In this document: in pieces, positions 1-25,050 of the stretch | Layout: each line of letters starts with the position of its first letter | Numbering within the stretch: position 1 is the first letter of the stretch | NCBI GenBank assembly: GCA_009602725.1 | Contig: WELB01000015.1 | Coordinates: 1,048,920 to 1,073,969 of the forward strand | Source of the DNA: Spirogloea muscicola | Taxonomy: Eukaryota > Streptophyta > Zygnematophyceae > Spirogloeales > Spirogloeaceae | Direction of reading: 5' to 3' | DNA length: 25,050 nt | Made by a program: the position numbers and the translations under genes | Notes under the pieces: generated by a model | The model's database searches: none | What the model was told of the DNA's origin: nothing | Seen by the model: only the letters and a program-made list of their open reading frames with translations

Positions 1-675
1 CCCCCCCTCCCTTCCTCCCCCTTCTCTCCCATCTTGCAGAGGAATGTTTGCGTGAGAGTACTCAGTCGGATCATCTAGATGTAGGAATTCTGGAGTCCGC
101 TGCTCCATTACTCCGCGACAGCATCTCTCAGCAGTCAGCATCTCTCTGGGCTGGCCACCCCTGCACCACCCCCGAGATTGTCGTCTATCAATCGGCGCTT
201 CATCTCCCCCCCAGTGTTGTTGGCAGAACAGACACAATTAGCGTGCGTTAGGAGCTTGCATTAGGCTGAGAAGCAGCTCGACCAGGTCGGCTCCGGTCGA
301 CCGCCGGGATACAAGAGTTGTTGAGTACAGCCCCCATATACATGTGTGGACTTGGGGCAGCCTCCACAGTGTAACTGGGCAATGGCTGATGAGTTAGAGA
401 CACTTGTAGCACGGTCGCAGGGCCAGCCTGTCACAGTCATTGTGTGCCCAGACGGGATCTGGTCGCAGTTGACAGGTGCTCGTTGCAGGAGCCTTAATAC
501 GGCAGCCCTGAATGCATTTATGTCGCAGCTTTCGCCAGAGCTCTCACCTCAGCTGCCTTTCCAACTAGGGGCTTACAAGCTCAACTTTGTCCACGTCTTC
601 GAGTGACCAGACATTCTTGCCATCCACAAGAATAGTGATTCTTAATAGCACACTTTGTCCTCGGTTGCCCATCAG
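1..675 (+). other. 5' part of the UXS locus, mostly intron; one possible tiny exon
   Basis: The window opens in a long polypyrimidine tract ending TTGCAG at 34-39, which looks like a 3' splice site. The next 12 bases (40-51, Arg-Asn-Val-Cys) are followed by GTGAGA, a good donor, and could be a micro-exon joining in phase 0 to the UXS exon at 676. This is tentative. I looked here for the glycine-rich NAD-binding segment of UXS (GGAGFxGSH) and did not find it, so that exon should lie before the window. Reading frames at 48-251 and 346-606 resemble nothing I know and contain no convincing splice structure. Confidence 0.4.
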
Positions 676-3600
676 GTCATTGTTGCGGACAACTACTTCA
701 CAGGTAGCAAAGACAACCTCAAGCGGTGGATCGGCCACCCAGACTTTGAGCTCATTCGACATGGTGAGGAGTCATTTCCATTAGGCTAAGTCCGATAGGA
801 ATTGTGCGCAGACACGACTTGCTCCATCGAAGTCTCTTAGCAGTTGCAAGACTTGCTGGTTTGCACGTGATTAGATCAAGCTGACTGAAGGGCTTTCGTG
901 ACTTTCAATCAGCAAAGTCCCTTTCCACCGCGGTCGCGCCCATTGAAGCAGACGCAGATCATCCAACAATCTTTGTTCTGCATAGTCACTAAAGGCAATG
1001 CTCCAAATTGCAGATGTCACGGAGCCCCTGCTCGTAGAGGTTGACCAGATTTACCACTTGGCGTGCCCTGCCTCTCCCATCTTCTACAAGCACAACCCTG
1101 TCAAGGTACAATTGCACTGCCTCCTCAATCAGTCATCTCTACTTCAGGGGAGACCTATGGGGCCCTTCTGAGACACTGACAAATCTATTTTCCTGGCATG
1201 TACAGGGCAGTTGAAGTATGTGACTAACTTTTAAGCAAAGTATGAATGCTTGGAAGTGAGCTTATGATTGAATGTTAGGGGCTATCTAAGGGGTCCAGCA
1301 CCCTGCCTTCAAGCTATCCACTTTCTAACCTTGGCTGTTGCACTCTGAGTTTCAGACTATCAAGACCAACGTGATGGGCACTCTCAACATGCTTGGCCTG
1401 GCAAAGAGAGTGGGTGCTAGGTGACAAGCAGCTCCATGCCACAGTAACTGGCACTGTCTTCTTTCGATGCTTCTATCAATGTTTTCAGTTCTGCGCACCA
1501 TGTCCTGCTCAGTCTGTTGCATTGTGCCTTCAGCCAAAGAGTAAGGCAAAGCAGTCAGCCTTGAGTGCTCTTGCACTTACCCAGCTTGACTTGGCTGCAC
1601 AGGATTCTTCTGACGTCCACCTCTGAGGTTTACGGGGACCCACTCGAGCACCCTCAGACGGAGGAGTACTGGGGAAACGTCAACCCTTTTGGTAATCTCC
1701 TCTGCTCCGCACCTTAAGTGGGGCCTCTGTTGACTTTACATACTGGTCTGGACCCATAGCACTAATAATGCCAGCTGCCCCACTGAAGTGGCGTACTTGT
1801 CAAGGCAGGTGTGCGTAGCTGCTACGACGAGGGGAAGAGGGTTGCTGAGACACTTATGTTCGACTATCACAGACAGCACGGCATTGGTAGGTCATCAGTC
1901 TAACCCCTGTGCATTTACCACTTTGTAGTGCTCTGTAGCCGCACGCAGTGAGTAAACCGTCAGCTTGCTTCCACAACATATGTAATGTGCTCTGCTAAAT
2001 GCATGCCCAATTTAGCGGCTAGTTGATCTAATTCTGAGCTTGAGTGGCCGGGATGGAGAGGTTGAGAGTTTGCCAGTAATTTCCGCTTTGATTGTCTTCT
2101 CTAGAAATTGCACTCTAGATTTTGCTCGGTGTTGTAGATATGTGGAGGGGATCGCTTTACGAGCTCCTAAGAAGAGAACGTTTGATGCCCTCAGAAATCA
2201 GGGTTGCTCGCATCTTCAACACCTACGGCCCTCGGATGAACATTGACGACGGCCGTGTCGTCAGCAACTTCATTGCGCAGGCACTGAGGTGAGAGGCATG
2301 ATGACTCGAGCAAGCAGCCTGTCAGGTCGGCAATAATGCATAGGCACCGAGGTGGTTGCTTGCTAGCATATCATATATCCAGGGCTGGCAGACAATTTAT
2401 CGGTAAGATATCAATCTCCTCCAAGCAAACATGCACGGTGCTTAGCGACTTTGCGCTCAGGCCCTCATAAGACTGAAGGTAGTCAGGGCTGTCTTTGAGA
2501 GGGATCCAGCAGATGACTATTGATGGGAAGCACCTTGATTCTTGTTTTCCTTCAGAGGTGAGGAGTTGACTATCCAGGCACCTGGAACACAGACACGCAG
2601 CTTCTGCTACGTGTCAGACATGGTGGGCAGCATCGCCTAACTTGACCAGTCATCATGGCTTACTGTGCGTGTCACTCAGCTCAGTGTAGTTGCCACTCTC
2701 CTTCATAATCTTTGGTGAAGTTGCTGGCTTTACTCTATCTTCCGTACTTTTCAGTGACTCACCTGCATGTCCTCGTAGGTTGACGGCCTCATGAAGCTCA
2801 TGAGGGGTGAGCACACCGGCCCGATCAACATTGGGAACCCAGGTCTGTCCTCAATGTCATACCCACCAGGCAGATTGGTGTTTGACCGTAAGCAAGCAGG
2901 AATGAAAATGGGGACAACAGGGAATGGAGAGTGTGGAAAGCAATACATGGAGCAGGCACACCGCAGTCACAGACGGGGCCAGAATTGTGGGTCAGTCTGC
3001 ACCGCTCAGTTCTTTCATCTATGCTCATGAACCTCCTCCCACGTCACAATTGCTCCTGCCTCCAGGTGAGTTCACGATGCTGGAGCTGGCAGAAGCTGTC
3101 AAGGACGTGAGTAATCTACCGCCAATCATCAGAGCTACCAAAGCCTTACTTTTGATTGGTCTCACAAGCCAAGGCAATGCAGGAATTTTGTTTGCCGGAT
3201 AAGGCATTACATGGTTAAATATGTGGCAAAGGTCTGCATGAAAGTTTGAGGTCTCTTTCTAAAGTCAAAGATTGTTGAATCTTGAGACCTTGACTCGGCG
3301 TGCATGGACTTCAAGTAAAGTTGCAAAAAACAACTTTCGATGTGTGCAGATGGTCAAGTCTGATGCTGTCTTCAAGACCGTGGAAAACACTCCTGATGAC
3401 CCCCGGAAGCGAAAGCCCGACATCACGAAGGCGAAGAAGCTATTGGGCTGGGAGCCTAAGGTATGGAGTTGATTGCCCCAAGGCTTGAACACCCAGAAGA
3501 TGCCACATCCAGACATGCTTGGACCTGTAGCTTTGCTTATGTAGATCATTAATCTGGAAAGAGAAAGTGTGCATGTTACTTACGTATGAACATTGAGATG

Positions 3601-3730
3601 CCAAGCGCTTGAGATCGGCTCTGTGCATCTTCTGGTGCCGCTCTGTGGAACCTCACAGGTCACATTGCGGGAGGGACTTCCCCTGATGGCCGAGGACTTC
3701 AGGTCACGGCTCGAGGTGTCTGGGAAGTAG
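676..3730 (+). CDS. UXS: UDP-glucuronic acid decarboxylase (UDP-xylose synthase), 5'-incomplete
   Basis: This enzyme converts UDP-glucuronate to UDP-xylose with NAD+, supplying xylose for cell-wall and glycoprotein glycans. Eleven exons join without a phase break: 676-763, 1014-1105, 1356-1420, 1603-1691, 1809-1886, 2195-2288, 2556-2622, 2779-2842, 3066-3106, 3350-3460 and 3659-3730 (stop TAG). They encode 286 residues. The product starts at [15 protein letters not shown] and follows plant UXS nearly word for word. It has the [10 protein letters not shown] segment (about residues 86-95), the catalytic YxxxK of the SDR family in SCYDEGKR (Tyr117, Lys121), [17 protein letters not shown] (about 142-158), the [14 protein letters not shown] substrate-loop segment and the C-terminal [13 protein letters not shown]. 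The upstream Rossmann GxxGxxG exon and any membrane anchor lie outside the window, so cytosolic and Golgi isoforms cannot be told apart. All introns are GT-AG. The gene is tail-to-tail with DPH7. Confidence 0.95.
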
Positions 3731-4343: not shown

Positions 4344-6207
4344 TCATGTGTGAAGCCAGGCAGTGGTGTGGGGCTCCCAGAGGTGGAGTGCGCGGTCATA
4401 GAATGAGCACGTTGCGACGAGGCAGCTGGCCTTGGACGTCAGGACTGGTTGCTCGTCACTGGGAGCTCCTGCGTCTTGTGAGGCCTCTGGTACCAGTCCT
4501 TGGTACCAGTCAGCTCCATATGCAAGTGACTTGTGCTCTGTGTAGGTCTCAGTGACCGTTCCGTTGCGCAGAATTGCAAAGCCAGCATGCATGGCCGCCA
4601 CGAGGAGCAGCGACGCGTCCCACGGGTGCCACCGGAGGCGCCATGCGCCGCCGCCAAGCGCCGTGGACTGCACCAGCGTCGGTGCCGATGGCCGCCTGAC
4701 GTCGAAGTAGCGCACCGCCTCGTCGTAGCTGCCAGTGGCCACCACGTGCCCGCAAAGTGGGCTGCTGCGTATGCTGTCGTCCACAGCAAGCATCGCCTCC
4801 TGTCAGCAGCTGCGACTCAAGCATACCCCTCAATGCTAACACTCAAACATTGCCAATAGATCAAAATCAACAGTCTAATACCATAACATGATGTTAGAGA
4901 TAAGTTTCCTGTGCCCTGTTGCTCAGGTTGCAATACACGGTGTATTACAGGCCATGATGCCATGACGAGAATGAACTTCGTCAGTGAGTGCTTCCAAGCT
5001 TGGGAGGAGAGCAATGACCTGCAGACTCCAGCGGAGTGAGAGGTGGCATCGCGGAAGGCTGGGCGGCTGGTGGGCGCGCGCACGTCCCACGCGCAGAAGG
5101 AGCAGTCGTCGGAGCCGCTGCGCATGTCAACGCTTCAGAGCCCGTGCCAGAATTGCAGCAATGGCAAAGCTTCCAGCTGACAAAATCACTTGCGGAAAGG
5201 GGCTGCCGCATCTTGAGATGATAATACTGGTCAGGTAAGGCAATTGTTGCAAGAGCAGGCTCCACACTTCTCATAAAAATTTGTGTGTATGCCATAGATG
5301 TCTGAACTTCCGCTTGATGACTTAGATAACAGTCATAAATCACAAGTCAATAAGCACTCAGGACTCCAGGACTTACAAAAGGGTCCTCAAACCTCACCTG
5401 TACAGGACATGAGGAGACCAGAGGTCGTGCGCGGCAGCCCAAACCTCGTGGCGGTGCGCCGTCCACGACCGGTGCGCAGTCGGGCTGCTGCAGCCAACGT
5501 CAGCGACGAGGCACAGCGAGCCATCTGCGAGGCCGAGCGCGATGCCGCCGCCGCGGGCTGGCTGCCAGTCCACGCAGAGGCAGATGCCGCTCGAGACCGC
5601 TTGGCAACTGTCTGGCACCAGTGCCAGTGGCGCCTCCGTAGCCTCGCCCGTCGCATCGGGGCCCTCTAGGTGGTAGAGGGTGAGGCAGCCGTTGGAGCCA
5701 GCCTGCGCCAGCTGCGGGCGGCCGTCGCCGGCTGCTGCAGGGCGCCATGCGAGGTCCAGGACGCCGGCTGTCTCCGCATGGTGTGCCTGCGACGGCCGCA
5801 GAGGCTCAGGCCTAGCTGCATCAACTAACGAGTCACTACTTTTGCCATGTTCTGAACGTATTCTGTCGTAAACCCTAAACCCTAAACCCCCAAATCCCAA
5901 TTCCTAAACCCTATGCCCTAAACTTCCTTGGGAAGTTAGTGGGTTATGGCAGCGAGGGACAAGGCAGGAGGAGGATGAGATACAGCTAGCGACAAAGGCC
6001 AGTCAGGCAGACCTGGACGAGCTTGCGGCAGCCGGGAGAGAGCTGGAAGACGTGAACGCCGCCGCGCCGCTGCTGGGGCCCATCGCCGCCCGCCGCCTCC
6101 TCCAGCGTGTACGTCCCGACCGCCAGCAGTTGCTCGCAGCCCGTAGTCGGGCAGAACTCGACGCAGTCCGCATTGCCCGGCAGCACGTGAACGTCAGCGG
6201 CGCGCAT
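4344..6207 (-). CDS. DPH7: Diphthine methyl ester synthesis protein 7 (diphthine methylesterase, WD40)
   Basis: DPH7 removes the methyl ester from the diphthine intermediate on elongation factor 2, allowing the final amidation to diphthamide; it is cytosolic. Four exons on the minus strand join in phase: 6207-6013, 5786-5398, 5117-5019 and 4773-4344, giving 370 residues, within the usual range for the family. The start ATG (6207) opens a first WD blade with VEFCPTTGCEQLLAVGTY. Later segments are AGVLDLAWRP, YSGSDDCSFCAWDVRAP, GVCSIRSSP, then VVATGSYDEAVRYFDVR (about 238-254), GGGAWRLRWHPW (268-279), AMHAGF, YGADW and CSFYDRALHLWEP close to the C terminus, all hallmarks of DPH7. The acceptor at 4774 was chosen because it restores GVCSI in phase; a nearer acceptor at 4800 breaks the frame. 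Introns 1 and 3 use GTCTGC and GTCATT donors. Telomere-like repeats lie in intron 1 and directly before the start codon. Confidence 0.92.
5869..5924 (+). repeat. Degenerate telomere-type array in DPH7 intron 1
   Basis: About eight units of the plant-type telomeric heptamer CCCTAAA are visible. The first three are perfect; the others carry changes such as CCCAAAT, CCTAAACCCTATG and CCCTAAAC. The array lies inside intron 1 of DPH7, between exon 2 (ends at 5786) and exon 1 (from 6013). In the gene's own sense it reads TTTAGGG. Confidence 0.85.
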
Positions 6208-6213
6208 CTGCAG

Positions 6214-6328
6214 ACCCCTGCCTAAACCCCTAAACTCCTACACCCTAAATCAGTACCCTAGAATCTAAAATCCCCTAAAACCCTGAATCCTCAAACCCTA
6301 GAGTCTGAACCCTAAATGCTAAACCCTG
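6214..6328 (+). repeat. Degenerate telomere-type array just upstream of DPH7
   Basis: Roughly 115 bases of corrupted CCCTAAA units (CCTAAACCCC, ACCCTAAAT, CCCTAGAAT, CCCTAAAAC, CCCTGAATC, AAACCCTAGA, AACCCTAAATG) begin only 7 bases upstream of the DPH7 start codon. The array therefore occupies what should be the 5' UTR or core promoter. Plant promoters sometimes carry single telo-boxes (AAACCCTAA); this is a long decayed array rather than one box. Confidence 0.85.
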
Positions 6329-7128
6329 ATGGCCGACTGGCAGGTCAGAAGGCCGAGTCCGCAACGGCCTTGAGCCTTCGCTACAAGCTGGAGTCGAAGC
6401 CTTGTGCATTCACCCCTCGACAGAACCTTCAGTTCTACAAGTTGACCCTTAAGTTCTGCCTGAGACTCGAGTGCCGCCGAGTCTTTGTCCCTGCAGCGCT
6501 CCTGGGCTCACGCCTTTACTGCGTGCTGGCCGTTGCCTGTTATTGCCTCGGCAAGGGGGGGGGGCTGCATCTATTGCATTACTTCGTAAGAAACTCTCTT
6601 TTTCTACTTACCCAGCACCTGTGCCTTCCTATTCTGAATGAACATTCGCCTAACTTAAGAGGAGCTGTTACGTTTGGGCTGGCCTCTTTCTTCTCCTCTT
6701 CGAGCCATAACGCTCTTACTTTGATTGGGAGGGGCTTTCACAGCCCATCGAGAAATTTCGTGTATTTGAAACAAATAAAGGCCGAATGGCCAAGTACAAA
6801 GGCAATTACATCTGAAGACCTACATAATCTACAGCAGATTGACCCGCTCAGCAACTACTGGTCAAAACGTGAAGGTAGCTAGTCGAAGCCAGAATGCTAG
6901 ATGGCAGATACGAAGCCCTTCTGCCACCAACTAGAGCTTTCTGGTTCAAAGCATTAGCCTGAGCATGCTGCAAACAGGCCGAAACTCGTCGTCGCAAGAA
7001 AGACAGAAGAAAGTGCTCGCCCATTGAGAATAGGGGCCGGAACAACCAGCCCGAAAAAGAATGAACAGAGTACGAGAAGGGGGCCAGGGGAAGCGCTAAG
7101 TAACAGAAACAAAGCTGCTACGAGACAC
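6329..7128. other. Gene-free stretch with decayed repeat DNA
   Basis: No conserved protein is seen. A 188-codon open frame at 6316-6882 (+) starts inside the telomere-like array and ends just after the dispersed repeat, has no recognisable domain, and is probably chance. The stretch holds a G9 run near 6556, the 12-mer CTACTTACCCAG at 6604-6615 that recurs in the 17-kb repeat copy, and the repeat core at 6744-6851 (listed separately). Confidence 0.5.
6744..6851 (+). repeat. Dispersed repeat, copy A
   Basis: This stretch aligns over its whole length with 17064-17174 on the same strand, at about four fifths identity by eye with a few one-base gaps. Shared words include ATCGAGAA, TTCGTGTAT, AAGGCC, AATGGCCA, AAGGCAA, GCAGATTGACC and GCTCAG. 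The 12-mer CTACTTACCCAG occurs 140 bases upstream here and 104 bases upstream in the other copy, so the element may be longer than its best-conserved core. Family unknown; no open frame is shared. Confidence 0.75.
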
Positions 7129-8037
7129 TCAGTAACCCCTGCTAAGCAGCCGCAGATCAGAGATGCTGGGCTCCTGGAAGTGGGTCCCCTGGCCAGAGCC
7201 AGAGGCAGCAGCGAGGGCTCTGCCGGCACGAAGGTGCAGCGCCCGGGCCATGGACCTCTGCAGCGAGACGGCCAGGCGCATTCGATACACTTGCGCCAGC
7301 GACCCGGCTGCAGGGAAGTCTACCGGCTCTCCATGGAAGCGCCGGGCGATGGTGTGGCGGGCGAGCTGGGTGAGCAGCTCGAGCCACCGAGCGCCCAGCG
7401 CCCCATGTGTGTCGATGGCCAACGGAAAGAACTCGTCTTCCCGCGGATGATCCGCGTACTTCAGCTCTTTGGCCCGAGCAGCGCAGGCGACCGCATACCC
7501 AGCCGTGGTGGCACATTTGGCTGGGTGTGAGCGGTCATAGGCATCAGTAGTCACCACGTCCAGGAGAAGACGTGGCCCGCCGGCCTGTCGGGTGGCCACC
7601 AGGTCTACACGCCTGGCATGAAGACCGTCGGCCCTGTGCTGGATTGGCATGATTCCGGAGTGCTCTGCTGCCACGGAGAAACCAGCCTCCAACAGGATGC
7701 CATGCATTACGTCGCGGAGGCGGTCGTGGGCCGCTGTCCGCTCTCCGCCGTGGGAACAGCGCAGAACATGAGCAGCCAGCTCTCCAGGCTCGGTCCCGCG
7801 CTCGCCACACTCACATTGACGCACACCCTGGAGACATGGCGGCAGTAGGCCCAGGAGCCTGTGGACGGCACTTCGGAATACCTCGTCCGGGAGGGTGAGG
7901 GCGTCGTAGAGGGGGAGGGCCTGGAGCCACGCCGCAGCCCCCGGGGAAGAGGCCGAGTGGAGTCTCGCGCGCCCGCGCAAGTCGGCCTCGGGGAGCTGGA
8001 GCACCTCGGGGAGCTGAATGCAGCTGGCAGGCCCATC
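7129..8037 (-). pseudogene. 3' fragment of a non-LTR-type retroelement ORF (C-terminal nuclease-like domain)
   Basis: A 303-codon open stretch on the minus strand, with no stop between about 8037 and the TGA at 7129-7131, resembles the C-terminal part of reverse-transcriptase proteins common in plant and algal genomes. Visible are AWLQALPLYDALTLPDEVFR, a Cys/His cluster (CECGERG, then HVLRCSHG), and a PD-(D/E)xK-like series: VDLVATRQ, RLLLDVVTTDAY, RAKELKYADH, followed by PLAIDTHGALGARW. The polymerase domain (the YxDD box) is not found in the window, and in-frame stops appear before 8037, so this is a 5'-truncated relic. Such truncation is usual for LINE-like insertions. No target-site duplication was identified. 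Confidence 0.75.
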
Positions 8038-8175: not shown

Positions 8176-8223
8176 GGAGACTGGTTCCTTTGATCTGCCG
8201 GAGACTGGTTCCTTTGATCTGCG
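8176..8223 (+). repeat. 24-bp tandem repeat, two copies
   Basis: The unit GGAGACTGGTTCCTTTGATC plus TGCC is repeated head to tail at 8176-8199 and 8200-8223, differing only at the last base. It lies just beyond the retroelement fragment. No function is suggested. Confidence 0.9.
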
Positions 8224-8301: not shown

Positions 8302-9400
8302 TTTGTCAGTCTTCTTTTGGGCTGGTCAATTACAGCCGTCGCCCGTTACTGGAGGAGTCAATCTTTCTGGTGAAAGGCCAGCCCGAAAAGAATGGACAAG
8401 GTCCAAAGGGACTGGAATGCACTAAAACATTGTCCATCCTCTCGAGCTTTTGAGGCTGGCCGTCTCAGCCCTCGGCCCATTTGCGAGACTCAGACTTGCA
8501 TCTCCTGACTAGAGGTTACTGAGCGTTCCCTGGCTGATGTCTTAGTCCTAGTCCTTCGTACTCCGGCTCCTTCAGACCTTGTCCATTCCTTTGGGCTGGT
8601 CTTTCCCAGCCACCAGTCAATCTGGCCGCGCTTCCTGCTTTTGCGAGGGCTCACTTCTTGGAGCACACAGCTACGCATGTTCCACAGAGAAACAGAAGCG
8701 CGGCCAGATTGACTGGTGGCTGCGAAAGGCCAGCCCAAAGGAATGGACAAGAGAGAAGTGGCACTCCCAATGGGGGCAAGGGCTGCGAATAGCCAGCCCA
8801 GAATTGACAAATGTTCGGAGGGGCCTACACAGAGGATGGTAAAGCCGCAAGTCAGATTTGCTAGCAGCCGGAATGCAGTCCCCTTGCCAACATCCAGAGG
8901 CGGCAGCTGGGGAGGCTTTCTATCTCTATCTGGCTCGTCCCCTTGGGAAGCTGTTTCTTCTTCTATCACCCTTCAATACGAACTCGTGGGTATAGAAATC
9001 CCCCTTCAGCGTGCTTTCGAACAGTCACCCATCTCCCCTTGATATAGGGCTTCGCTTCTTGTAGCTCCATCCTTCGCTATAGCTTTTGTATGCACAGAGG
9101 CGTCACATGGCCTCCCTTTCAAGTCATGCGCACCACGCACTCCAGAGCAATCCTTGCAATCCGGCCCCAGCAGAGCTCGATACATCCTATCTGGGCTGGC
9201 CTTCCACAGCTTTCGCCCTGTTTCGAGATGACCTCTCTCTTTACCCGGCTGCAATTGCGTCCCACTTGCGGCTGCTAAGCACGGTTCTCTCAGCGGCCAT
9301 CCTTAGTTTTGCTGTTGTCCCTGCGTTGCAATCACTTTCCAAATCATTTTTGCCTCGTCATTCTTTTGTGGGCTAACCCTCTACAGCACCTGCCCATCGG
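8302..9400. repeat. Cluster of hairpin-forming repeat modules
   Basis: A module of about 40 bases recurs with the outline TTGTCCATTCYTTTGGGCTG followed by GYCTTTCCCAGCC. The segments GGCTG(G) and C(C)AGCC pair to make a small stem-loop. Forward copies are seen near 8302-8340, 8433-8490, 8578-8625, 9190-9225 and, weaker, 9365-9395. Reverse copies are near 8369-8400, 8695-8751 and 8782-8815. Loop bases vary while the stem tends to be kept. This suggests a structured non-autonomous element inserted repeatedly, or tandem and inverted spread of one element. Confidence 0.6.
8578..8751. repeat. Near-perfect 57-bp inverted repeat
   Basis: The left arm 8578-8634 and the reverse complement of the right arm 8695-8751 agree at 55 of 57 positions, separated by a 60-base spacer. 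The arms begin CTTGTCCATTCCTTTGGGCT and end CAATCTGGCCGCGCTTC. The structure could form a long cruciform or RNA hairpin. It is the best-preserved pair in the surrounding repeat cluster. Confidence 0.92.
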
Positions 9401-12665: not shown

Positions 12666-13114
12666 NNNNNNNNNNNNNNNNNNNNNNNNNNNNNNNNNNN
12701 NNNNNNNNNNNNNNNNNNNNNNNNNNNNNNNNNNNNNNNNNNNNNNNNNNNNNNNNNNNNNNNNNNNNNNNNNNNNNNNNNNNNNNNNNNNNNNNNNNNN
12801 NNNNNNNNNNNNNNNNNNNNNNNNNNNNNNNNNNNNNNNNNNNNNNNNNNNNNNNNNNNNNNNNNNNNNNNNNNNNNNNNNNNNNNNNNNNNNNNNNNNN
12901 NNNNNNNNNNNNNNNNNNNNNNNNNNNNNNNNNNNNNNNNNNNNNNNNNNNNNNNNNNNNNNNNNNNNNNNNNNNNNNNNNNNNNNNNNNNNNNNNNNNN
13001 NNNNNNNNNNNNNNNNNNNNNNNNNNNNNNNNNNNNNNNNNNNNNNNNNNNNNNNNNNNNNNNNNNNNNNNNNNNNNNNNNNNNNNNNNNNNNNNNNNNN
13101 NNNNNNNNNNNNNN
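12666..13114. other. Assembly gap (449 N) flanked by CGG/CCG repeats
   Basis: The unknown bases are bordered by GCCGCCGCC-type triplets at 12579-12600 and CGG triplets at 13115-13136. The region is probably a GC-rich trinucleotide stretch that failed to assemble, and the stated length may be an estimate. It hides the start of the RING-TPR gene. An ATG at 13186 on the minus strand could be its start only if the true gap length keeps the frame. Confidence 0.9.
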
Positions 13115-13400: not shown

Positions 13401-16400
13401 ATGACGGCTGCCAGCCCGCCGCCGCGGCTCCGCCGTGATGGCGCCTCGCCGCTGCCGCTCGGCATGGACGCCTGCCCGCGGCCCGCGCACTGGGTGAGAC
13501 TGCAAACCCTAGTCACCCTCAGTCCCTCTCCACAGGTCGCGGGTTCAAACACCGACAATTGCGCTATAGAAAAGCCAGCAGTAGCACCTCCTCCCATGCC
13601 TCTCCGCCAGCTTAGTGCGTTCGTGCTGCTGCATGCGGGCGACGGCATCTGAGCCTCCGCATGGCGGCGGCCGCAAGCAGCGTGGCCGCCACACCGTCTG
13701 GCCGGCGGAGGCCGAGGGCCACTGGGCCTTCTGTGCCATGGTCCTCTCGTGGACTGCATTCCCGGCTGCCCGTGGCGGCCCTGGCGGTACCGCTGTACCC
13801 ACTGTCGTGAGTCCCCCGCCTTCAGTCCTTTCCTTCTCGCAGGTCGCACCTCTGCACGCCAATGCACGGCCTGCTGGGACGCGCCTGTGATGCTGGCAGC
13901 GCGGGCGCCGCCATGGCCCCAGTTCTTCCGCGTGCAGGTCGGGGTGCAGTCGCCCGAGGGCGCGAGCTTTGCGCGGGGCATCCTCCGCCGCTTCTCCGAC
14001 TTCCTCAAGCTACACGCCGCCGTGAGCGCCCACTTCGCCTGCTGCCGGCTGCCAGCTGCCATTTCCCCCTCTCCTCCGCCTCTGCTCCCTCCACCCTTCT
14101 CTCACCTGGGTTGCTGCACTCCTGCAGCTCAAGCGCTCGCTGCCTGGGAAGAAGCTGCGGGCTCCACCCTCCCGGAACTCGCTCGTACGTGTCAGCGCCA
14201 GCCCCGGCCTGCTGGAGGAGGTAAGGCCACATTGTCGTGCTCTCCCTTCCGCCATCTTCATCTTGTGCTCATCTCTGTCGCCGTCTTCTGGGGCAGCGTC
14301 ACGAGCCGCACCGCCGTAGATGCTCCTGTGGCAGCGGCGCAAAGCACTCGAGGACTGGCTGGACGAGCTGCTGAGCGATGTTGACATCTCTCGCTCCGCA
14401 CCCGTGGCCTCCTTCCTCGAGCTCGAGGCCGCGGCACGTGCTGGTGCCCCTCCTCATACTTCCTCCTCCCCCTTCCCCCCTCCTCCTCGTGCCTTACCTT
14501 TCAAGCGTGCCCTTGCCAGCCTGACTGCCTCCACGGACTGCCTGCATGCCTTACCTCCACCAGGCATCAGTACTCACGGTTGTGCCAGTGTGCACCTCGG
14601 CAATCTTTTGGCAGCAATGACGGCGCTGCTGGAAGCCGTGCAGCCGGAGGTTGATGTCAGCGGCGGCCCTCCATCTCCTTTGCTGGGGCCCGCTGAGGCT
14701 GCGCTGCTCGCCCGAAGCCCTCAGCTGATGGCGGCTGGTAATGGCGGCTACGTCAGCGACAGCACGACAGGCGGGCGGGGGACGCCCAGCGAGGGCCTCA
14801 GCGAGGCGGGCGATGAAGAGGGGGGTTATGAGGGAGAGAGGAGAGGGGGAACAGGAGAGGTGGGGGACGCATACCTGCAAGGTCAGGCAAGTGCTGAGGG
14901 CCTGTTCGCGGACGGAGTCGGTGCCACCGCAGCCGGCACGAGGTTGCCAGAAGTTGCTGGCCAGAACGGCGGCGGCAAGATTGGCGGCAGCGATCTGCGC
15001 TCCCACTGGCGTGCCGCATCGCATGACAGCCTCGCATCGGACACGAGCTCAGTTGGCGGCGGCGGTGGTAGTGGAAGCGGAGGAGGCGAACTGGCGCCAG
15101 CAACAGCATTGCCGCAGCCAATGATGAAGGAGTCAGGGGCAGCAGCGGTGGCAGCAGCGTTGGCGGTAGCAGAGAGCCGGGTGCGGGGGCTTGAGGCAGA
15201 GGTGGCTACGGTCGCGGCGCGAGCCTCCGCGGAGCGCGAGCGCTTCACGGCGCTGCAGTGGGAGCTGGAGGAGGCGCGAGGCGCAGCGGTGGCTGAAATG
15301 GCGAGAGCAGCGGCAGCGAGCGCGGAGCTGTCAGCCGCACTGACGGGCAGGGAGGCCGCCGAGGCGAGTGCACGCGAGGACGTGCGGTTGCTGGCTCGTG
15401 AGGTGCTTGCGCTACGGCGGGCGCTGGATGGCACCCGGGCTGACATGGCCGGCGCAACATCGGCGGCTGCTGACGCTGCCGCAGCGGTGGCCGACTTCCA
15501 GGTCTGACCATCGCTCTTCTCCTCCTTCCTCTCACGCCTCTCTCCAGTCTCAGCAGAAAGGAAGCCCAGCATCTCCAGACATGCTTGCTACCCCACCCAC
15601 CACCTTACCCCTCTCCGACACGCTTGTGCTGCAGGCACAGCGAGAAGCGGAGCGTGCAGCGCTGGTGGACGTGTTGCACGAGGCTGGCACGCTGCGCCGT
15701 CGGCTGCGCGAGTGCGGCCTTGACGCGGTTGCATGCGAGGCCAGCTCCGGTGGCGCCTCCACTAATGACACACTTGCACTGCTTTCAACATCTAATGGCC
15801 GCATCACTGCGCTTCTAGCCGAGGTGCCCTCAAGCCCCACCTTGTTCATCACCGTATCTAAGGCACACGTGTGATATCTGGCTGTTAGGGTCAATGTTGT
15901 CACCGTATGCAGTCAAAGCTTTCTTGTCTGTGCGTACTCGCCATTTGCTGCTACAAGTCCAGCTTTCCCTCAAATCTATGAGCAGCTGCCTAACGCACAG
16001 CAGCGTCCCATGGGCAATCGTGGATAGTAATGTTGCCACCACAGACCAAGATTGTACAATCCAGAAGGATATAGTCTCCAGACATGTGATCTGAGATTGG
16101 TTTTGGCTTTTTGCTGGTCATGACGGTGCCATTCTTGGTGCTAGTATGAATTTGAGGTTTGCGAGAAGAATTGCCGGTCCTTAGCTGTATCAGCGCATCA
16201 TTGGTCCTGCTTTTCTGCAGGCTCAGCTCCTGGGTGCGGCCCAGAGCAGCGGCAGCAGCGTTGATGGTGACGACATCAGCGTCAGCGACGATGGCAACAG
16301 AGGCAGCCGCGACAGTGCTGGGAGCGCCAGTGGTGCGCCAGCGGCCAAGGAAGGAGAGACTGTAACAAGTGTGGAGCAGGGCTGCAATGAGGAGGGAGGG

Positions 16401-16640: not shown

Positions 16641-17226
16641 CATCGAGGACACCCAAGTCTATATTTCTCATAGAATCAATGCCCTGTGACATTACACATG
16701 ACCCGGTCGTATTCACACAATGAGATAGCCGCCAACCTGGTTCGGCAGCCGTGTGCAATCATTTGGACTGGTCCAACTTGGTCGGGGCTGCATATGCTCA
16801 GAACTGCTTAAGTTGGTGCTTGGGCTGCATGACGTACCGCAACTTGGCTTATGCTTGCTGCCGGCACAAGCGTGTACTGACTGCAAGTGCCTGCCTGAAT
16901 GGCGATGCTGCACCGATGCGGCTGGGCTTTGCAGCGTCTGCAGCGTCTGCTCATCACTCCTACTTACCCAGACTCTAATGCGAGACACATCCCTTCCGAA
17001 GGGTGCGAGCCCTAAGCCCTGCTTCGAAGTGCCTGTGCAATCTTCACGGGGCAGGAACGGTCGCCTATCGAGAATATTCGTGTATCTGACACAAACGAAG
17101 GCCACAATGGCCACGTACGAAGGCAAGCCACATCTTATGACGTACATCACGCACTGCAGATTGACCTCGCTCAGTCATCCCGCTCGCACAGCGAGGTCCT
17201 CGCAGCTGCTGCTGCTGCCGCTGCTG
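16641..17226. other. Intergenic region with dispersed-repeat copy B
   Basis: No gene is seen between the EREX-like stop and the histone-fold gene. The region contains the 12-mer CTACTTACCCAG at 16960-16971, the repeat core at 17064-17174 and a short GCTGCTGCT run just before the telomere-like array. The EREX-like 3' UTR and the histone-fold promoter must lie here. Confidence 0.5.
17064..17174 (+). repeat. Dispersed repeat, copy B
   Basis: Partner of the copy at 6744-6851 on the same strand, with about four fifths identity by eye. Copy B contains the palindromic GGCCACAATGGCC where copy A has GGCCGAATGGCC, so a small GGCC stem is kept in both. It lies about 50 bases before a telomere-like array. 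Confidence 0.75.
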
Positions 17227-17310: not shown

Positions 17311-19342
17311 ATGCGGGCCGGGCCGGCGGGCCTGGATCCGAGGCTCGCGGAGGAGGAGGCGGAAGCTTCCGAGAAGGAGCAGCTGGGCGGCGGCGATGGC
17401 GGCGGTGACGGCGAGGCGGACTGGCTTCCCAGGGACGGCGAGGAGGACCGCCGGCCCGACGGCAGCAACGAGGACGCCAGCGGCGGCGGCGGCGGCGGCG
17501 GCGGCGGAGGCGGCGGCGAGTGGGAGGACGACGGAGAAGAGGTAGGCGCCCACGATGGCGACGACGGCGAGGACGACAGAGAGGAGGGNGCGGGCCAGCC
17601 GCCGCTGGCGCTGCCGCTGTCGCGCGTCAAGCGCCTGGTGAAGGCGCAGGGCGACGTCGCCATGGTCAGCGCCGAGGCCGGCGTTCTCATTGCCAAGGCC
17701 GCTGTGAGCTTGCTCGGCTCCTCAACCCTAAACCTAAACCCAGACTTCGTAAATCCTCAACAACCCTAAATCCTCATTGTCCATTCCGTTTCTGTACTGC
17801 GGATCATATCCTTGTGGCGTCTCTGCGCCACTCGCCTGCGTCCACTCACGACCGTGTCTAACATAAGATAAGCCACACTGGCTTCAGTGGCTTGAGCCAT
17901 CAGAAGGATCCATAATCCTTTCTCAGTTTTGGCCATTGATGACTGCTCATACCGCTACAAGGAAAGAGCAAGATCATGCTTGCAAACCTTCGGTATTGGA
18001 TTTGGGTTTAGAACGACGAGGGCGCATGACTTCAAGCCCTGCAGCCATAGTGTTATCTCTAATGAAACATTTTGCAGTGACCAACACCCGGACACCATCT
18101 TTGGGTAGTGGGACTCTCACAATGGCGGCTCCTGGCTGCGTGCTGCAGGAGCTGTTCCTTGAGTCGTTCTCTGAGGCGGCGTACACCATGGCCTGCGCTG
18201 CTGGTTCAACCTCCAATCTGACGTACAAGGACCTTGGTGAGCTTCACCTCAAGCTCAGAGCCCTGAGCCCTGAGCCCTGAGCCCCCAAACGTAGAGCGAA
18301 GGTGGTGGGATATGAGACGCCTCTGGTGCTACAGGTTGCTGGCCGGTCACAGCTCAATCTCCACAACAACAGCGAACATCCTGGTCCTGGTTAATCTCAA
18401 TGTTCCAATCGACTTCAAGTGATCATAGGTATCGAGATATAAGTCTAGGTTTCATATTTGCATCTTCGGCCTTCAGGAGCCAAGGGATTAGGACGCTCAC
18501 AACGAGCACCTGATTCGCCTGGCTGGCCCACCTTTTGTGCTTCAAGTACTGCCTTATGTTTGAGAATGCAGACCTCCACCAGCTGTGCCAAAGTCTGCTG
18601 CACAAGAATTACGAATGCCGAAGGGCAACTTTGTTCAGACCTGCGTGCCGCTGCAACAGTCGTGGCTGACTTGATTGTTAATCAAAAGCCGAATGCCTGT
18701 CCTTTCGAAGGCGCGTTGCCTTTGCACTTGCTACACCTGGCCTTGAAGCTGCCAAGGTGTTGCTCAATGTCTGTCTGACTTATGGGGTGTTGGCTGTATC
18801 GATGTGGACTGCTGATAATGAGCTGACTGGAGAAATTGTTGTCTCTTATCAAGAAATGATCTTCATCTTCTTCGTAGGGGTTGCCAGGATATGGTCGGTC
18901 GGTGAGGGTCCCTCTGACCAGGCCAGGAGCAGAGGCTCCATGACCATCGTGCCATACGACATGGACGCAAACTACGTGACAGGAAGCTTTCATGATGCTC
19001 TAAGCTGACGATGAGGTCCCTCGCCCCTTTGTGTGCAGCGGCTGCTGTGGCCAGCACGGAGTGCTTGGAGTTCCTCCGAGGTGAGGCCAAGCTCGGACAT
19101 AACTTGCTTGCAGTATAGTTGCGGCTTTGCTTTGGAGCCAGTTTAGTTAGCTCTCAGATGAGCCATATTCAAGTAGACAGGTAGACCAGTTTCTTAAGCA
19201 GCAACTAAAGGCTATCTGGTAAGCTGAGTGCCACTGGATATGGTAAGTCTTTCCCGCAGACATTGTGCCGGAGATGGTGAAGGCGTCAGCGGCGTTAGCG
19301 GTCCATGCGTCTGAGAGCAATGGGGACTTGGACGTTCATTGA
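17311..19342 (+). CDS. Histone-fold protein of the POLE4/Dpb3/CHRAC (NF-YC-like) group
   Basis: Four exons join in phase: 17311-17703, 18149-18236, 19039-19080 and 19260-19342 (stop TGA), giving 201 residues. The N-terminal half is acidic, rich in Glu/Asp/Gly, with a poly-glycine run at about residues 58-69 and one undetermined base (17589, residue 93). The histone fold runs from about residue 101: LPLSRVKRLVKAQGDVAMVS, EAGVLIAKAAELFLESFSEA, then TSNLTYKDLAAAVAS and CLEFLRDIVPEMV. This is the pattern of the H2A-like partners POLE4/Dpb3, CHRAC and NF-YC10, which pair with an H2B-like partner in DNA polymerase epsilon or chromatin remodelling. I cannot decide between these from sequence. The start is the first ATG of the open frame; the weakly conserved leader leaves it uncertain. 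Telomere-like arrays flank exon 1. Confidence 0.85.
17723..17775 (+). repeat. Degenerate telomere-type array in histone-fold intron 1
   Basis: CAACCCTAAACCTAAACCC is followed, after a short interruption, by AAATCCTCAACAACCCTAAATCC. The array begins about 20 bases inside intron 1, whose donor follows 17703. Together with 17227-17278 it brackets exon 1. Confidence 0.8.
18258..18286 (+). repeat. Heptamer tandem repeat GAGCCCT in histone-fold intron 2
   Basis: Four successive GAGCCC(T) units lie 20 bases after exon 2. The heptamer length and CCCT core recall a telomere variant (CCCTGAG against CCCTAAA), but it may be plain microsatellite DNA. Confidence 0.7.
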
Positions 19343-20518: not shown

Positions 20519-23500
20519 ATGGCGCGCCTCGCCCTCGTCAGGGCGGCGACGCTGGCCGCTCGCCGGCTTGGCCATGCAACGACGGCCGTCACAGAAGCCA
20601 CACCAACGTCGTCGCCGCTGCACCAGTGTCAGCTGAGGCAGAGGTGGGCTGCCCTGCCGGAGCGCTGGCTGGCCTGTGCCGCCGCCGCCGCTGACGCTCC
20701 GGCGCACAACGTTGCGGCCTCCAAGAACGTCAGTAGATAAACCCCAGGCCAGGAATGTCTAAAAGACTCGTCGACGCCGAAAGCTCGTGCAGTTGTGGTC
20801 ACTCAATACCTGTCTGCATTCAGGCTGTGAAATTTAGGATCAGAAGCTGGGTATCTGTGAAGTCGAGGTGCTTCGCTGTGAGAGTCTGTCTATGACTCCT
20901 GCCCTCGAGGGCCTGCCGTGCTTGCAGCCTGCAATTGCGAGGATGGAGGCTGCTAAGGAGGCCGCGCTGAGCGGCGGTGGTGAGAAGCGCATTGCAAAGC
21001 AGCACCATGCTGGCAAGGTCTGCACCAATGCTGGGCTTATGCAGATGTAAGCATCATATATGTTGTCGTGACTTACATGGCCGGCTGCCTTCAAGACCCT
21101 AGACCCAACAATCTAGGACTGCAAAGGTTAAAATAATACGCGTAATCGTACAAACAATTTACAATAAGAGTCATAGTTGTACAAGTTTTGCGGAAGCAGA
21201 TGCTCTGATAAGTGGCCACTGGCGCTGGCACCCTTGCCCGCTGCCTTTCGTCACGCCAGCTGACGGCGCGTGAGCGTATCGCGGCTCTGGTGGACCCCGG
21301 CTCCTTCTGCGAGATGGGTATGTCTGAATTGCTCCTTTTCTAGCACTACAGTTCATTAATGACTGCATAGCCCTGTGCTTACACATTAATTAAACGTAGG
21401 CCGTGCAGCTTTGCATGCACCAGCCAAAGCAAGGCAGGAGTCATGGTGATTTCCCATGAATAGTGCGGACACCTGAACATGAATGGCTGACCCGTACTTG
21501 TCTTGGATTGGTGCGTGTTGTGCTCCATCTACCGAAATACCAGGCTTCTTGATGCACCCAAAAGCGTCGTCGTCTTTCTGTTACCCTGACCTGCTGACTT
21601 TTAATCTCCTTATTCTTTCACATAATCATCATCTAAACAAATGGTTACACTGGCGTGCTGGCATCTGCAGGGATGCTCGTGAAACACCGCTGCGTGGACT
21701 TCGGCATGGCCGATCAACACATCCTGGGCGACGGTTAGCGCCCCGCCAACTTTGTTACCTGCTTGTTTCACAACTTAATCTACGGTTGCCATTGATGACT
21801 CTAGGGACAAGGGAGTCCAGACTCAGTCCCACTATACACATGCCCTCGTGCAGGGGTAATTACCGGCAGCGGGAGGATAAATGGAAGGTTTGCCTCCGGC
21901 CGCTTGCGGCCTCCCTTTCGGGCCCGTAAGAGCTGTAAGACCATGATGATCAGACTTGGCGTGTAAATACCATCTGCAGCTTGCCCGTGTCACAGCGTCC
22001 ATCCCGAATCCCTGAGATTACACCTTAAGTGCAGTACTCATCTGGATGAGTAGCGCAAAAACAGCAGGCATCCGGCCCCCACCCAAAGCCCAAAGGCCCA
22101 CAATGATGTTGGTCGGTAGTCTGCTGCTCGTGGCAGGACCGTATACCTGTTCAGCCAGGACTTCACCGTCTTTGGCGGCAGCCTATCGGAGACCCACGCT
22201 CAGAAGATCTGCAGGGTACGCTCTTCTGTTTCTACCATTGCTATGTTCTCTTTTGATATTTTGGGGTGGAGACTGCTTCAACTCCAGCAATGTGATCAGC
22301 TGATTTTCCACTCCGTCTAATGTGTGTCAGCTGCAGGTCCTGTGTTTGTCTGACTTGCTCACCTTCTCTGAGCTGATAGGTCCTGGACAAGGCGATGGCA
22401 GTCGGGGCTCCTGTGAGGCTTGCCTTATAACTGCGACCACCTCACTACTTCGCCAAATAAAAGCTGGCAGGCCACAAGCAGCTTGCTGTCTTGCTGGGAC
22501 TCTTCTTAGCGCAGCCTGGTTCACTATGCCCACTTGCGGCGCCATGAAGGTGCTTGGCCTGAACGACTCTGGCGGGGCCCGCATCCAGGAGGGCGTGGTC
22601 TCACTTGGCGGATACGCAAAGGTCTTCCAGGTGATGAAACTTGCAGATAGGATTTCTCAGGCAATGTGGCAGCCACCAATGAGTATTCGCCTTGCTCTGA
22701 CAGACTGGGAGGCCTGGTCCTGGTTTGTCAAGGAAGCTGATCAGACGCTTTGGGTGTGGTGACAATATCAGGTCACTGGTACTGCGGCGGCTGAGCATGC
22801 TCATGACTGCCTGCTTGCAGAGGAATGTACTGGCGTCGGGTGTCATTCCCCAGCTATCCGTGATCATGGGGCCCTGCGCAGGTCCGTTGGGTAATCAGTC
22901 CTATGCTGCCTCCAGTCATGCAGCAGTAAACACAAATGCATGCGAGTGGTTCCTCATTTGCATGCCCAGCATGTTATTTCAATGGGTATACGATCAAGTT
23001 CAGAGTCCTTCTATTGATTTTGGGTGCTTTGTGGCAGTCTCGTCAGAGAAGCTGCTTGTAATCATTACTCTTTATTAGTCTGGCTTGTCACTTGTGTCCT
23101 GTCTCAGGTGGCGCTGTCTATTCACCTGCTCTGACGGACTTCATCCTCATGGTGCACTCTGACTGCTTTTGTTGGCTGGCTTATGCTGGAAAAATAATTG
23201 GTGCCTAGTGTATTTCTAACTGCAAGGGGTCCTTACGTAGATTTTCCTTGCATCGTAGTAAGGTACCCCACATTTAATTGCTAATACCCCTAGCTATTGG
23301 TGCGGATGCAAGAAAGGCGTTCTACCTTGCTTCACAAGGGTTGGTGAATTGGTGCTAAATCAAGGAGTGCCATACAGGTTCGCCGAAGCTCGCACATGTT
23401 TGTCACCGGCCCAGACGTGCTGCGCAAGGTCACACACGAGGATGTTACGCAGGTGCGCCACCCGCCTAAGCTGCCAGAGCACAACTGAAATGCTTCCAGT

Positions 23501-24652
23501 GGACGACGTACTTATCTAACTTGGACGTGGACGCAACGGTTGAGCCTGTTAGTCCCGGGCGGTTGTCTTGTGGGCCCCCCGCGCTCAGGAAACGCTCGGG
23601 GGCACTGAAACGCACACGACCAAGTCGGGTGTCGCGCACTTGGGTTTCGACAACGAACTCGATGCGCTTGCAAGGCACACACTTGTCCCATCTTCATGCT
23701 TTACTTCATCACAAGTGGTGGCAACAAAGTCTGTAGTTCTCCAACTCTGTAGTTCTCCAACTCTCAGTCTGTAATATCTTCATTCTTGCAGTGTTCGAGC
23801 CACTGTGCAATATTGGCTGAGGAATGCATGCACATAGCATCGTAACAACCCACGATCTTGTGTTGATACATCTTGTCATCTGAGGAGCTTCTTATGCAGT
23901 ATGTGTGATGAGGCGGCCTCTCAGATTGAGGGACTTGGTCGACTTCCTGCCAACATCTAATTGTGCGCCCGTGCCTTGCCAACCCCTGCCGAGATCCGAG
24001 GTATGCAGCTGCGAGCTTTGCAACTTGATACGTTTTTGAGAACCTAACATATAATTGGTGGAGGGACATCTCTGCATGAATGCATTCTCTGGATATGACT
24101 GATTGAATTCACTTACCATCTATCATCAAGCAATGGCATGATCATCTGCATGCTTTGGCTTGATGTCTCTGCACTCTGGTAAGTGGCGTGGGGCCATGGT
24201 TGGTCTTTGTGACATTGCTATGCAAAGCTGGCCTGTTGTCGAGACTGCAGTGATAGGGCCCTCAACTCGCTGGATAACATCATCCCTGAGGACCCATTAG
24301 CAGCGTATGACATGCAGGACGTCCTGGAGAAGGTGCTGGCCACCCTTGCCCCCCTCTGCCTAATGAGATGATAATCTTACAAAGCTCATGAAATTAAACA
24401 GATTGTAGATAAAGCATTGCCATACATTCAATCGTTGCATCGATGTACCTAACATATATACCACAGAAAGGTAAGTCCATTGTAGTAGAGGCCACAGCGT
24501 TGGCAATGCCAGCTGGAGGCACGTTAAAGCAGAGTTATACAGGACCTTAGATTACGCTGAGAGAAGACGTTCTCAGTGTGCTCGCTGGCTGGATTTGGGA
24601 GCTGCCGCTTGTCCAGGTTGTGGACGACGGCGACTTCTTTGAGATTCTTTGA
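20519..24652 (+). CDS. PCCB: Propionyl-CoA carboxylase beta chain, disrupted and 3'-truncated in this sequence
   Basis: PCCB is the mitochondrial carboxyltransferase that carboxylates propionyl-CoA to methylmalonyl-CoA. Exons: 20519-20728, 20928-21017, 21260-21317, 21671-21733, 21854-21887, 22137-22215, 22380-22412, 22550-22630, 22821-22881, 23108-23151, 23378-23452, 23589-23674, 23925-24000, 24251-24332 and 24617-24652. Exon 1 encodes an Ala/Arg-rich presequence. Then come [51 protein letters not shown] (acyl-CoA oxyanion-hole segment), [46 protein letters not shown] and [10 protein letters not shown], matching PCCB rather than the methylcrotonyl paralogue. Three oddities: a GC donor after exon 12, an apparent extra C in exon 13, and a 10-bp duplication in exon 15 giving TGA at 24650. 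Roughly the last 150 residues, including most of the C-terminal crotonase-like domain, are absent. Sequence error, misassembly and true decay remain possible. Confidence 0.9.
23731..23762 (+). repeat. 16-bp perfect tandem duplication in PCCB intron 12
   Basis: CTGTAGTTCTCCAACT occurs twice head to tail. It lies in the intron that begins with the GC donor. No role is evident. Confidence 0.9.
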
Positions 24653-24655
24653 GAT
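24636..24655 (+). repeat. 10-bp tandem duplication at the PCCB break point
   Basis: TCTTTGAGAT is present twice in succession (24636-24645 and 24646-24655). The second copy shifts the PCCB frame and creates the TGA at 24650-24652. If one copy is ignored, the PCCB frame passes directly into the zinc-finger frame that starts at 24654. Confidence 0.95.
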
Positions 24656-25050
24656 GCTGCCGTGCCCGCTCTGCCATGTCGCGTACAAAGGCTCCAAGGG
24701 CGTGAAGATCCACCTGCGCACCTGCGGCCTGCGCTGCGCCAACCTCGCCAGCTCGCCTCCCGCATCGGAGCCGCCGCCGCCGCACATTGCCTCGCCGTCA
24801 TCCCCCACTCCGCCATCGCTGCAGCCTCCGTCGCCAACCTCTTCGATGCCCGCGCCGGTCGCCGCGGCTGGCGCCCCTGCCCCACCATCGCCGCCCTCAC
24901 TGTCCTCTTCCCCGCCGCCCCCCCCCTTGCCCACTCCACCAGCGCCTTCGACATCACCTCCTCCCGCGCCTCCATCGCCCCCCCCGCCTTCTCCGCCTCC
25001 GCCACCCCCTTCCTCAACCCCCACAGCCGCGCCAGCGCCGCCGCCCTCGC
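24654..25050 (+). CDS. C2HC zinc-finger, proline-rich protein, N-terminal part (hypothetical)
   Basis: The frame opening at the ATG at 24654 stays open to the window end (132 codons). It begins MLPCPLCHVAYKGSKGVKIH and continues LRTCG, giving C-x2-C-x12-H-x3-C (Cys4, Cys7, His20, Cys24), a C2HC zinc finger. A long Pro/Ser/Ala-rich tail with PPPP runs follows. GC content is far higher than in the PCCB introns. No promoter or 5' UTR separates it from PCCB exon 15, because the ATG overlaps the 10-bp duplication. Single fingers of this spacing followed by low-complexity sequence occur in transcription factors and at the N terminus of some LINE-like ORFs; I cannot tell which. Alternatively a GTGCCC donor at 24664 could make all this intron. 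Confidence 0.5.
   Translation, partial: MLPCPLCHVAYKGSKGVKIHLRTCGLRCANLASSPPASEPPPPHIASPSSPTPPSLQPPSPTSSMPAPVAAAGAPAPPSPPSLSSSPPPPPLPTPPAPSTSPPPAPPSPPPPSPPPPPPSSTPTAAPAPPPS

Follow-up and report, generated by a model that had tools for sequence, protein, structure and literature searches.

Propionyl-CoA carboxylase beta similarity ends at a 10-bp tandem duplication beside a zinc-finger frame in a Spirogloea muscicola contig, most likely through a faulty assembly join or an ordinary gene interruption

Draft genome assemblies are documented to contain false duplications as well as chimeric joins (PMC9516828). The locus described here, at which a gene for propionyl-CoA carboxylase beta (PCCB) breaks off and a zinc-finger frame begins, shares with them a duplicated end at a junction of probably unrelated genes and a gapped scaffold. 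The false duplications described there are, however, larger and lie mostly beside gaps, whereas the present one measures 10 bp and bears no gap mark. R1 and R2 LINEs can likewise show duplicated target bases, such as could be read at our junction (hereafter the seam, 24635-24655), as well as extra bases, where their 5' ends join the target (PMC2718515), and joining by polymerase theta yields templated insertions copied from the flanks (PMC8654963). Restriction-like-endonuclease LINEs, among them R2 and Utopia, carry zinc fingers near the N terminus (PMC5678591 and PMC4640811), a position comparable to that of the finger in our frame; in contrast to such elements, the 395 bases between the seam and the end of our sequence show neither a reverse transcriptase or endonuclease nor a 3' end or a second copy of the target. 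The finger itself has its Cys-Cys-His-Cys spacing in common with the Pfam families Zn_SUZ12, zf-C2H2 and ZNF512_C2HC and with the ZBTB7A and CTCF fingers, but stays under all curated cut-offs of these Pfam families. The carboxylase product, for its part, is 62-68% identical to prokaryotic PccB proteins (best segment, best 80 loci kept).

The window, by which we mean the whole stretch of DNA analysed, comprises 25,050 nt of Spirogloea muscicola (assembly GCA_009602725.1, contig WELB01000015.1, positions 1,048,920 to 1,073,969 of the forward strand). It looks like eukaryotic draft sequence, with spliced genes and N runs, and neither Rfam at gathering thresholds nor a tRNA scan returned anything from it. 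Its 450 N are made up of a 449-N run (12666-13114) and one N at 17589. The run lies in CGG-rich sequence and the single N, which may be an undecided base and not a gap, in another GC-rich frame.

To the left of the seam, 13 plus-strand exons (21260-21317, 21671-21733, 21854-21887, 22137-22215, 22380-22412, 22550-22630, 22821-22881, 23108-23151, 23378-23452, 23589-23674, 23925-24000, 24228-24332 and 24617-24645) were joined from 21260 to 24645 into 275 residues of PCCB, a count that includes the I of the terminal FFEI. Exon borders were set by eye to hold one frame, with the end of the fourth exon placed at 22215 by a one-base shift, and the phase agreement is thus partly a product of construction. 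The product aligned to residues 64-332 of the 539 residues of human PCCB (E 4.1e-113), with the last recognisable exon (24617-24645) reaching residue 332, and to profile positions 8-276 of 493 in Pfam Carboxyl_trans (PF01039; E 3.8e-93). The N-terminal half of the carboxyltransferase domain is therefore present (human residues 64-332). The nearest NCBIfam model scored 357 bits against a cut-off of 998.8, as expected for only half a protein.

All 12 introns of this model end in AG and 11 start with GT; they measure 120-353 bp with a GC content of.44-.60, and the third-position GC of the exons is.73. The remaining intron, directly after 23674, starts with GC and is probably a GC-AG intron (23675-23924, plus strand). 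A profile of N-terminal PccB sequences marked 10 segments of the window, with E values from 1e-14 to 1.5e-4, that passed the threshold for inclusion. The last short exon reached only E 1.7 under the same profile, which indicates that very short exons can escape such a search. Two further PCCB exons likely lie upstream, outside the 13-exon join, one near 20519 and one in 20838-21047; the latter region matched the N-terminal profile at E 3.2e-5.

The last exon runs into the seam array at FFEI. As the initial annotation had proposed, PCCB homology ends at a perfect 10-bp tandem duplication that is followed by a TGA: the array spans 21 bp with a period of 10, and the window contains TCTTTGAGAT nowhere but in an adjacent perfect pair at 24636 and 24646, with no copy on the minus strand. 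The second copy supplies the last base of the I codon, and the TGA in the PCCB frame lies at 24650-24652 (plus strand). The ATG of the other frame (24654-24656, plus strand) opens one base after it, not two as first described. Exact tandem units of 8-20 bp, counted after exclusion of units built from fewer than three different letters, were found in 6 places (12349, 16930, 17211, 23730, 24635 and 24711), and an additional 24-bp tandem pair lies at 8176. The seam array holds the sole exact 10-bp unit, but with six short tandem duplications elsewhere such structures are not rare in the window.

Whether the stop could be spliced out was judged from a scan for GT and GC donors over 24617-24760. 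Three candidates (24617, 24620 and 24630) precede FFEI, and their use would cut it off; none was found between 24631 and 24655, and every candidate from 24656 to 24760 lies downstream of the TGA. Within the window, splicing can consequently not both retain FFEI and escape the stop, and the rescue by a donor after FFEI that had been envisaged, at 24664, fails there. We also compared the residues that follow the FFE-type motif in bacterial PccB proteins, which eukaryotic PCCB need not match exactly. In the 75 of 82 loci with a motif match (7 were dropped), the next residue was I in 58, L in 8, V in 7 and T in 2, and the second was Q in 74 and A in 1. Reading through a single repeat copy would yield methionine-leucine after FFE, a pair seen in none of the 75. 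On this tally the first copy, which reads FFEI like PCCB itself, is the last sequence with PCCB homology, and the second would seem to be part of the scar or of the right-hand sequence.

Beyond FFEI about 207 of 539 residues, or some 38% of the enzyme in human numbering, are absent; the initial annotation was right about the loss of the C terminus within the window, though it had put it at about 150 residues. On both strands, a profile of bacterial PccB C-terminal halves (built from tails of >150 residues; 75 of 82 fetched loci had the motif) gave nothing significant in the window (best E 3.1), and neither did tblastn with those tails (best E 0.072). Since none of the 12 introns exceeds 353 bp, one would expect the next exon of the native gene to lie within the remaining 395 bases, an expectation that rests on these 12 introns and is no proof.

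On the right-hand side, the ATG opens a frame that encodes CPLCHVAYKGSKGVKIHLRTC (24654-24761, plus strand), recognised by pattern match and codon-position GC, and continues as a proline/serine/alanine/threonine-rich stretch, delimited by its column composition, that stays open to the end of the window (24762-25049, plus strand). The proposed C2HC finger holds in its ligand spacing, with CPLC-x12-H-x3-C at 24663 spaced as in C2HC/C2H2 fingers, and in its codon-position contrast, while the pattern by itself is weak. Dinucleotide shuffling of 24617-25050 produced it in 40/2000 sequences when all six frames were counted (36/2000 in the plus frames), so that the motif taken by itself is no more than mildly unexpected, and one further match occurs in the window at 6833 on the minus strand. 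GC at codon positions 1/2/3 over the 36 codons of 24654-24761 was.58/.56/.92, against third-position values of.69-.80 in four other chosen coding or coding-like stretches; a third-position contrast of this size appeared in 4/5000 shuffles in the same frame and in 17/5000 in any of six.

In the continuation one column, the second position in this frame, is C in 86/96 codons and G in 1, and the third positions of the finger part have C 22 times and G 11 times; the C-rich column may therefore suit second positions of P/S/T/A codons better than third positions. Synonymous-codon scores trained on PCCB gave 7.2 for the finger frame over 24654-24761 and 7.8 for one minus-strand frame, and over 24762-25049 they gave -1.9 for the finger frame and 14.2, 7.5 and 6.5 for others. 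The right arm as a whole is low-complexity (GC.74), with four of six frames free of stops over 24656-25050, three of them besides the finger frame. The scores, the stop-free frames and a composition change point some 55 bases past the seam (given below) tell against coding, and we take the frame from 24654 to be probably, not surely, coding. Together with the end of PCCB homology, this coding-like signal suggests that two unrelated sequences probably meet at the seam.

No relative of the finger emerged. Pfam gave 11.2 bits against a cut-off of 28 (at best 16.5 against 28 with a 43-residue peptide), NCBIfam nothing for the frame up to E 1, and solved structures only weak matches to the ZBTB7A and CTCF fingers (E 0.046 and above). 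The peptide pattern was fitted by 148 stretches of viral contigs, none of which was confirmed, and two DNA patterns of the frame had no exact match there. The collections searched for relatives cover viruses, plasmids and prokaryotes, so these absences say little about eukaryotes.

Most likely, the break in the carboxylase gene reflects either a faulty assembly join or an ordinary gene interruption, and not a new kind of gene. We lean slightly towards the former, and give a technical origin of a chimeric PCCB/finger junction close to an even chance. The seam would in that case be a chimeric junction, with an apparently intact PCCB gene caught mid-exon on its left and, on its right, sequence that probably codes for an unrelated proline-rich protein with a C2HC finger. 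Two sequence ends may have been joined, either within a contig or where a gap was filled, and a short stretch of similarity between them retained twice; the tandem copy and the stop would then both be artefacts of the doubling.

The lean comes from an unmerged repeat exactly on the seam, in a gapped scaffold and next to a low-complexity right arm. PCCB similarity runs clean to FFEI and ends at the repeat, the C-terminal half is not found in the window, and the first copy supplies the expected I, with a continuation unlike bacterial PccB. Against such a join, the seam carries no N, which would place the fault within a contig or in a gap since filled; the six short tandem duplications elsewhere mean that the repeat may be native; and the best base-composition change point lies some 55 bases to the right of the seam, at 24710 (support interval 24707-24717). 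If the origin is technical, the locus is a small caution: any gene model drawn across it would be chimeric, with PCCB wrongly called broken.

A real event is a serious contender, although we hold it to be somewhat less probable than a misjoin. The PCCB exon would have been broken by a rearrangement or by a mobile element, such as a LINE whose N terminus carries a zinc finger, the joining would have copied ten flanking bases, and the new stop would truncate PCCB after about residue 332 (human numbering). The junction and finger precedents cited at the outset speak for it, as do a seam without N and the coding-like signal in the finger frame. Both copies of the duplicated unit lie on the side of the left junction, the only one in the window. 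Nothing in the 395 bases past the seam is diagnostic of a retroelement, since the window stops there, and the missing element parts named above weigh against an insertion, as does a right arm that is unrepeated in a self-comparison of the window. The finger, moreover, matches no family at cut-off and no viral contig: examined as a LINE-type N-terminal finger, the frame offers one C2HC pattern beside the ATG and no homolog in viral contigs. Among the literature matches listed, no title reported a retrotransposon insertion in PCCB.

We also considered a minus-strand open frame at 7135-8037 as a possible trace of a LINE source; it had no match in Pfam, NCBIfam, solved structures or viral contigs and was not used. 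A more elaborate form of a real event, in which the open reading frame of a mobile element, with the zinc finger and proline-rich arm, became fixed in the PCCB exon with a templated 10-bp scar, and transcripts from the PCCB promoter would carry a termination-reinitiation pair through the element start one base past the stop, strikes us as very improbable. Should the interruption be real, the PCCB gene of this organism would be a broken one and the seam a further duplicated-flank junction, a known kind of event.

That the finger frame is a product of chance appears improbable. The GC-rich stretch would then be noncoding or coding in another frame, and PCCB would carry a mere frameshifting 10-bp duplication with its next exon beyond 25050. 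The frequency of the pattern in shuffled sequence, the four stop-free frames and the higher PCCB-trained scores of other frames in both parts of the right arm fit this account. Opposed to it are the rarity of the third-position GC contrast among shuffles (17/5000 over six frames), a right-arm GC above that of all 12 PCCB introns, and the need for an intron longer than any of the 12 or for exon sequence unlike PCCB.

A functional PCCB-zinc-finger fusion or two-frame transcript, with the stop an error or bypassed, would draw on the single base between stop and ATG and on the continuity of both frames once one repeat copy is removed (a point of the initial annotation with which we agree), but is hardly credible with some 38% of the enzyme missing and methionine-leucine after FFE in none of the bacterial PccB proteins. 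Of the three readings originally offered, a functional fusion thus finds no support, leaving the misjoin, which we slightly prefer, and the real interruption.

Elsewhere in the window, the minus-strand frame at 7135-8037 is 301 residues long; it contains an acidic stretch that looks D-x-D-like, along with a CxC...H...C motif, and may resemble the C-terminal end of restriction-like-endonuclease LINEs; a structure predicted without an alignment had a pLDDT of 35.6 and was not usable. A spliced epimerase gene lies at about 660-3720 on the plus strand (joined exons: Pfam GDP_Man_Dehyd E 3.6e-43, Epimerase E 2.7e-37), which we take to resemble UDP-xylose synthase. At 4347-4802 (minus strand) and 14320-15504 (plus strand), weak beta-propeller (best E 6e-4) and PX-domain (E 0.07) similarities were seen, both below the Pfam cut-offs. 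A long hairpin at 8578-8751, matching its own reverse complement at 79% over 178 aligned columns, is possibly a mobile-element remnant. Arrays of degenerate TAAACCC-like units occupy 5869-5923 and 6221-6329 and are, we assume, similar to plant-type telomere repeats. Finally, a dispersed direct repeat of about 110 bp (6743-6851 and 17063-17174, 79% identical) adjoins telomere-like units at both of its copies.
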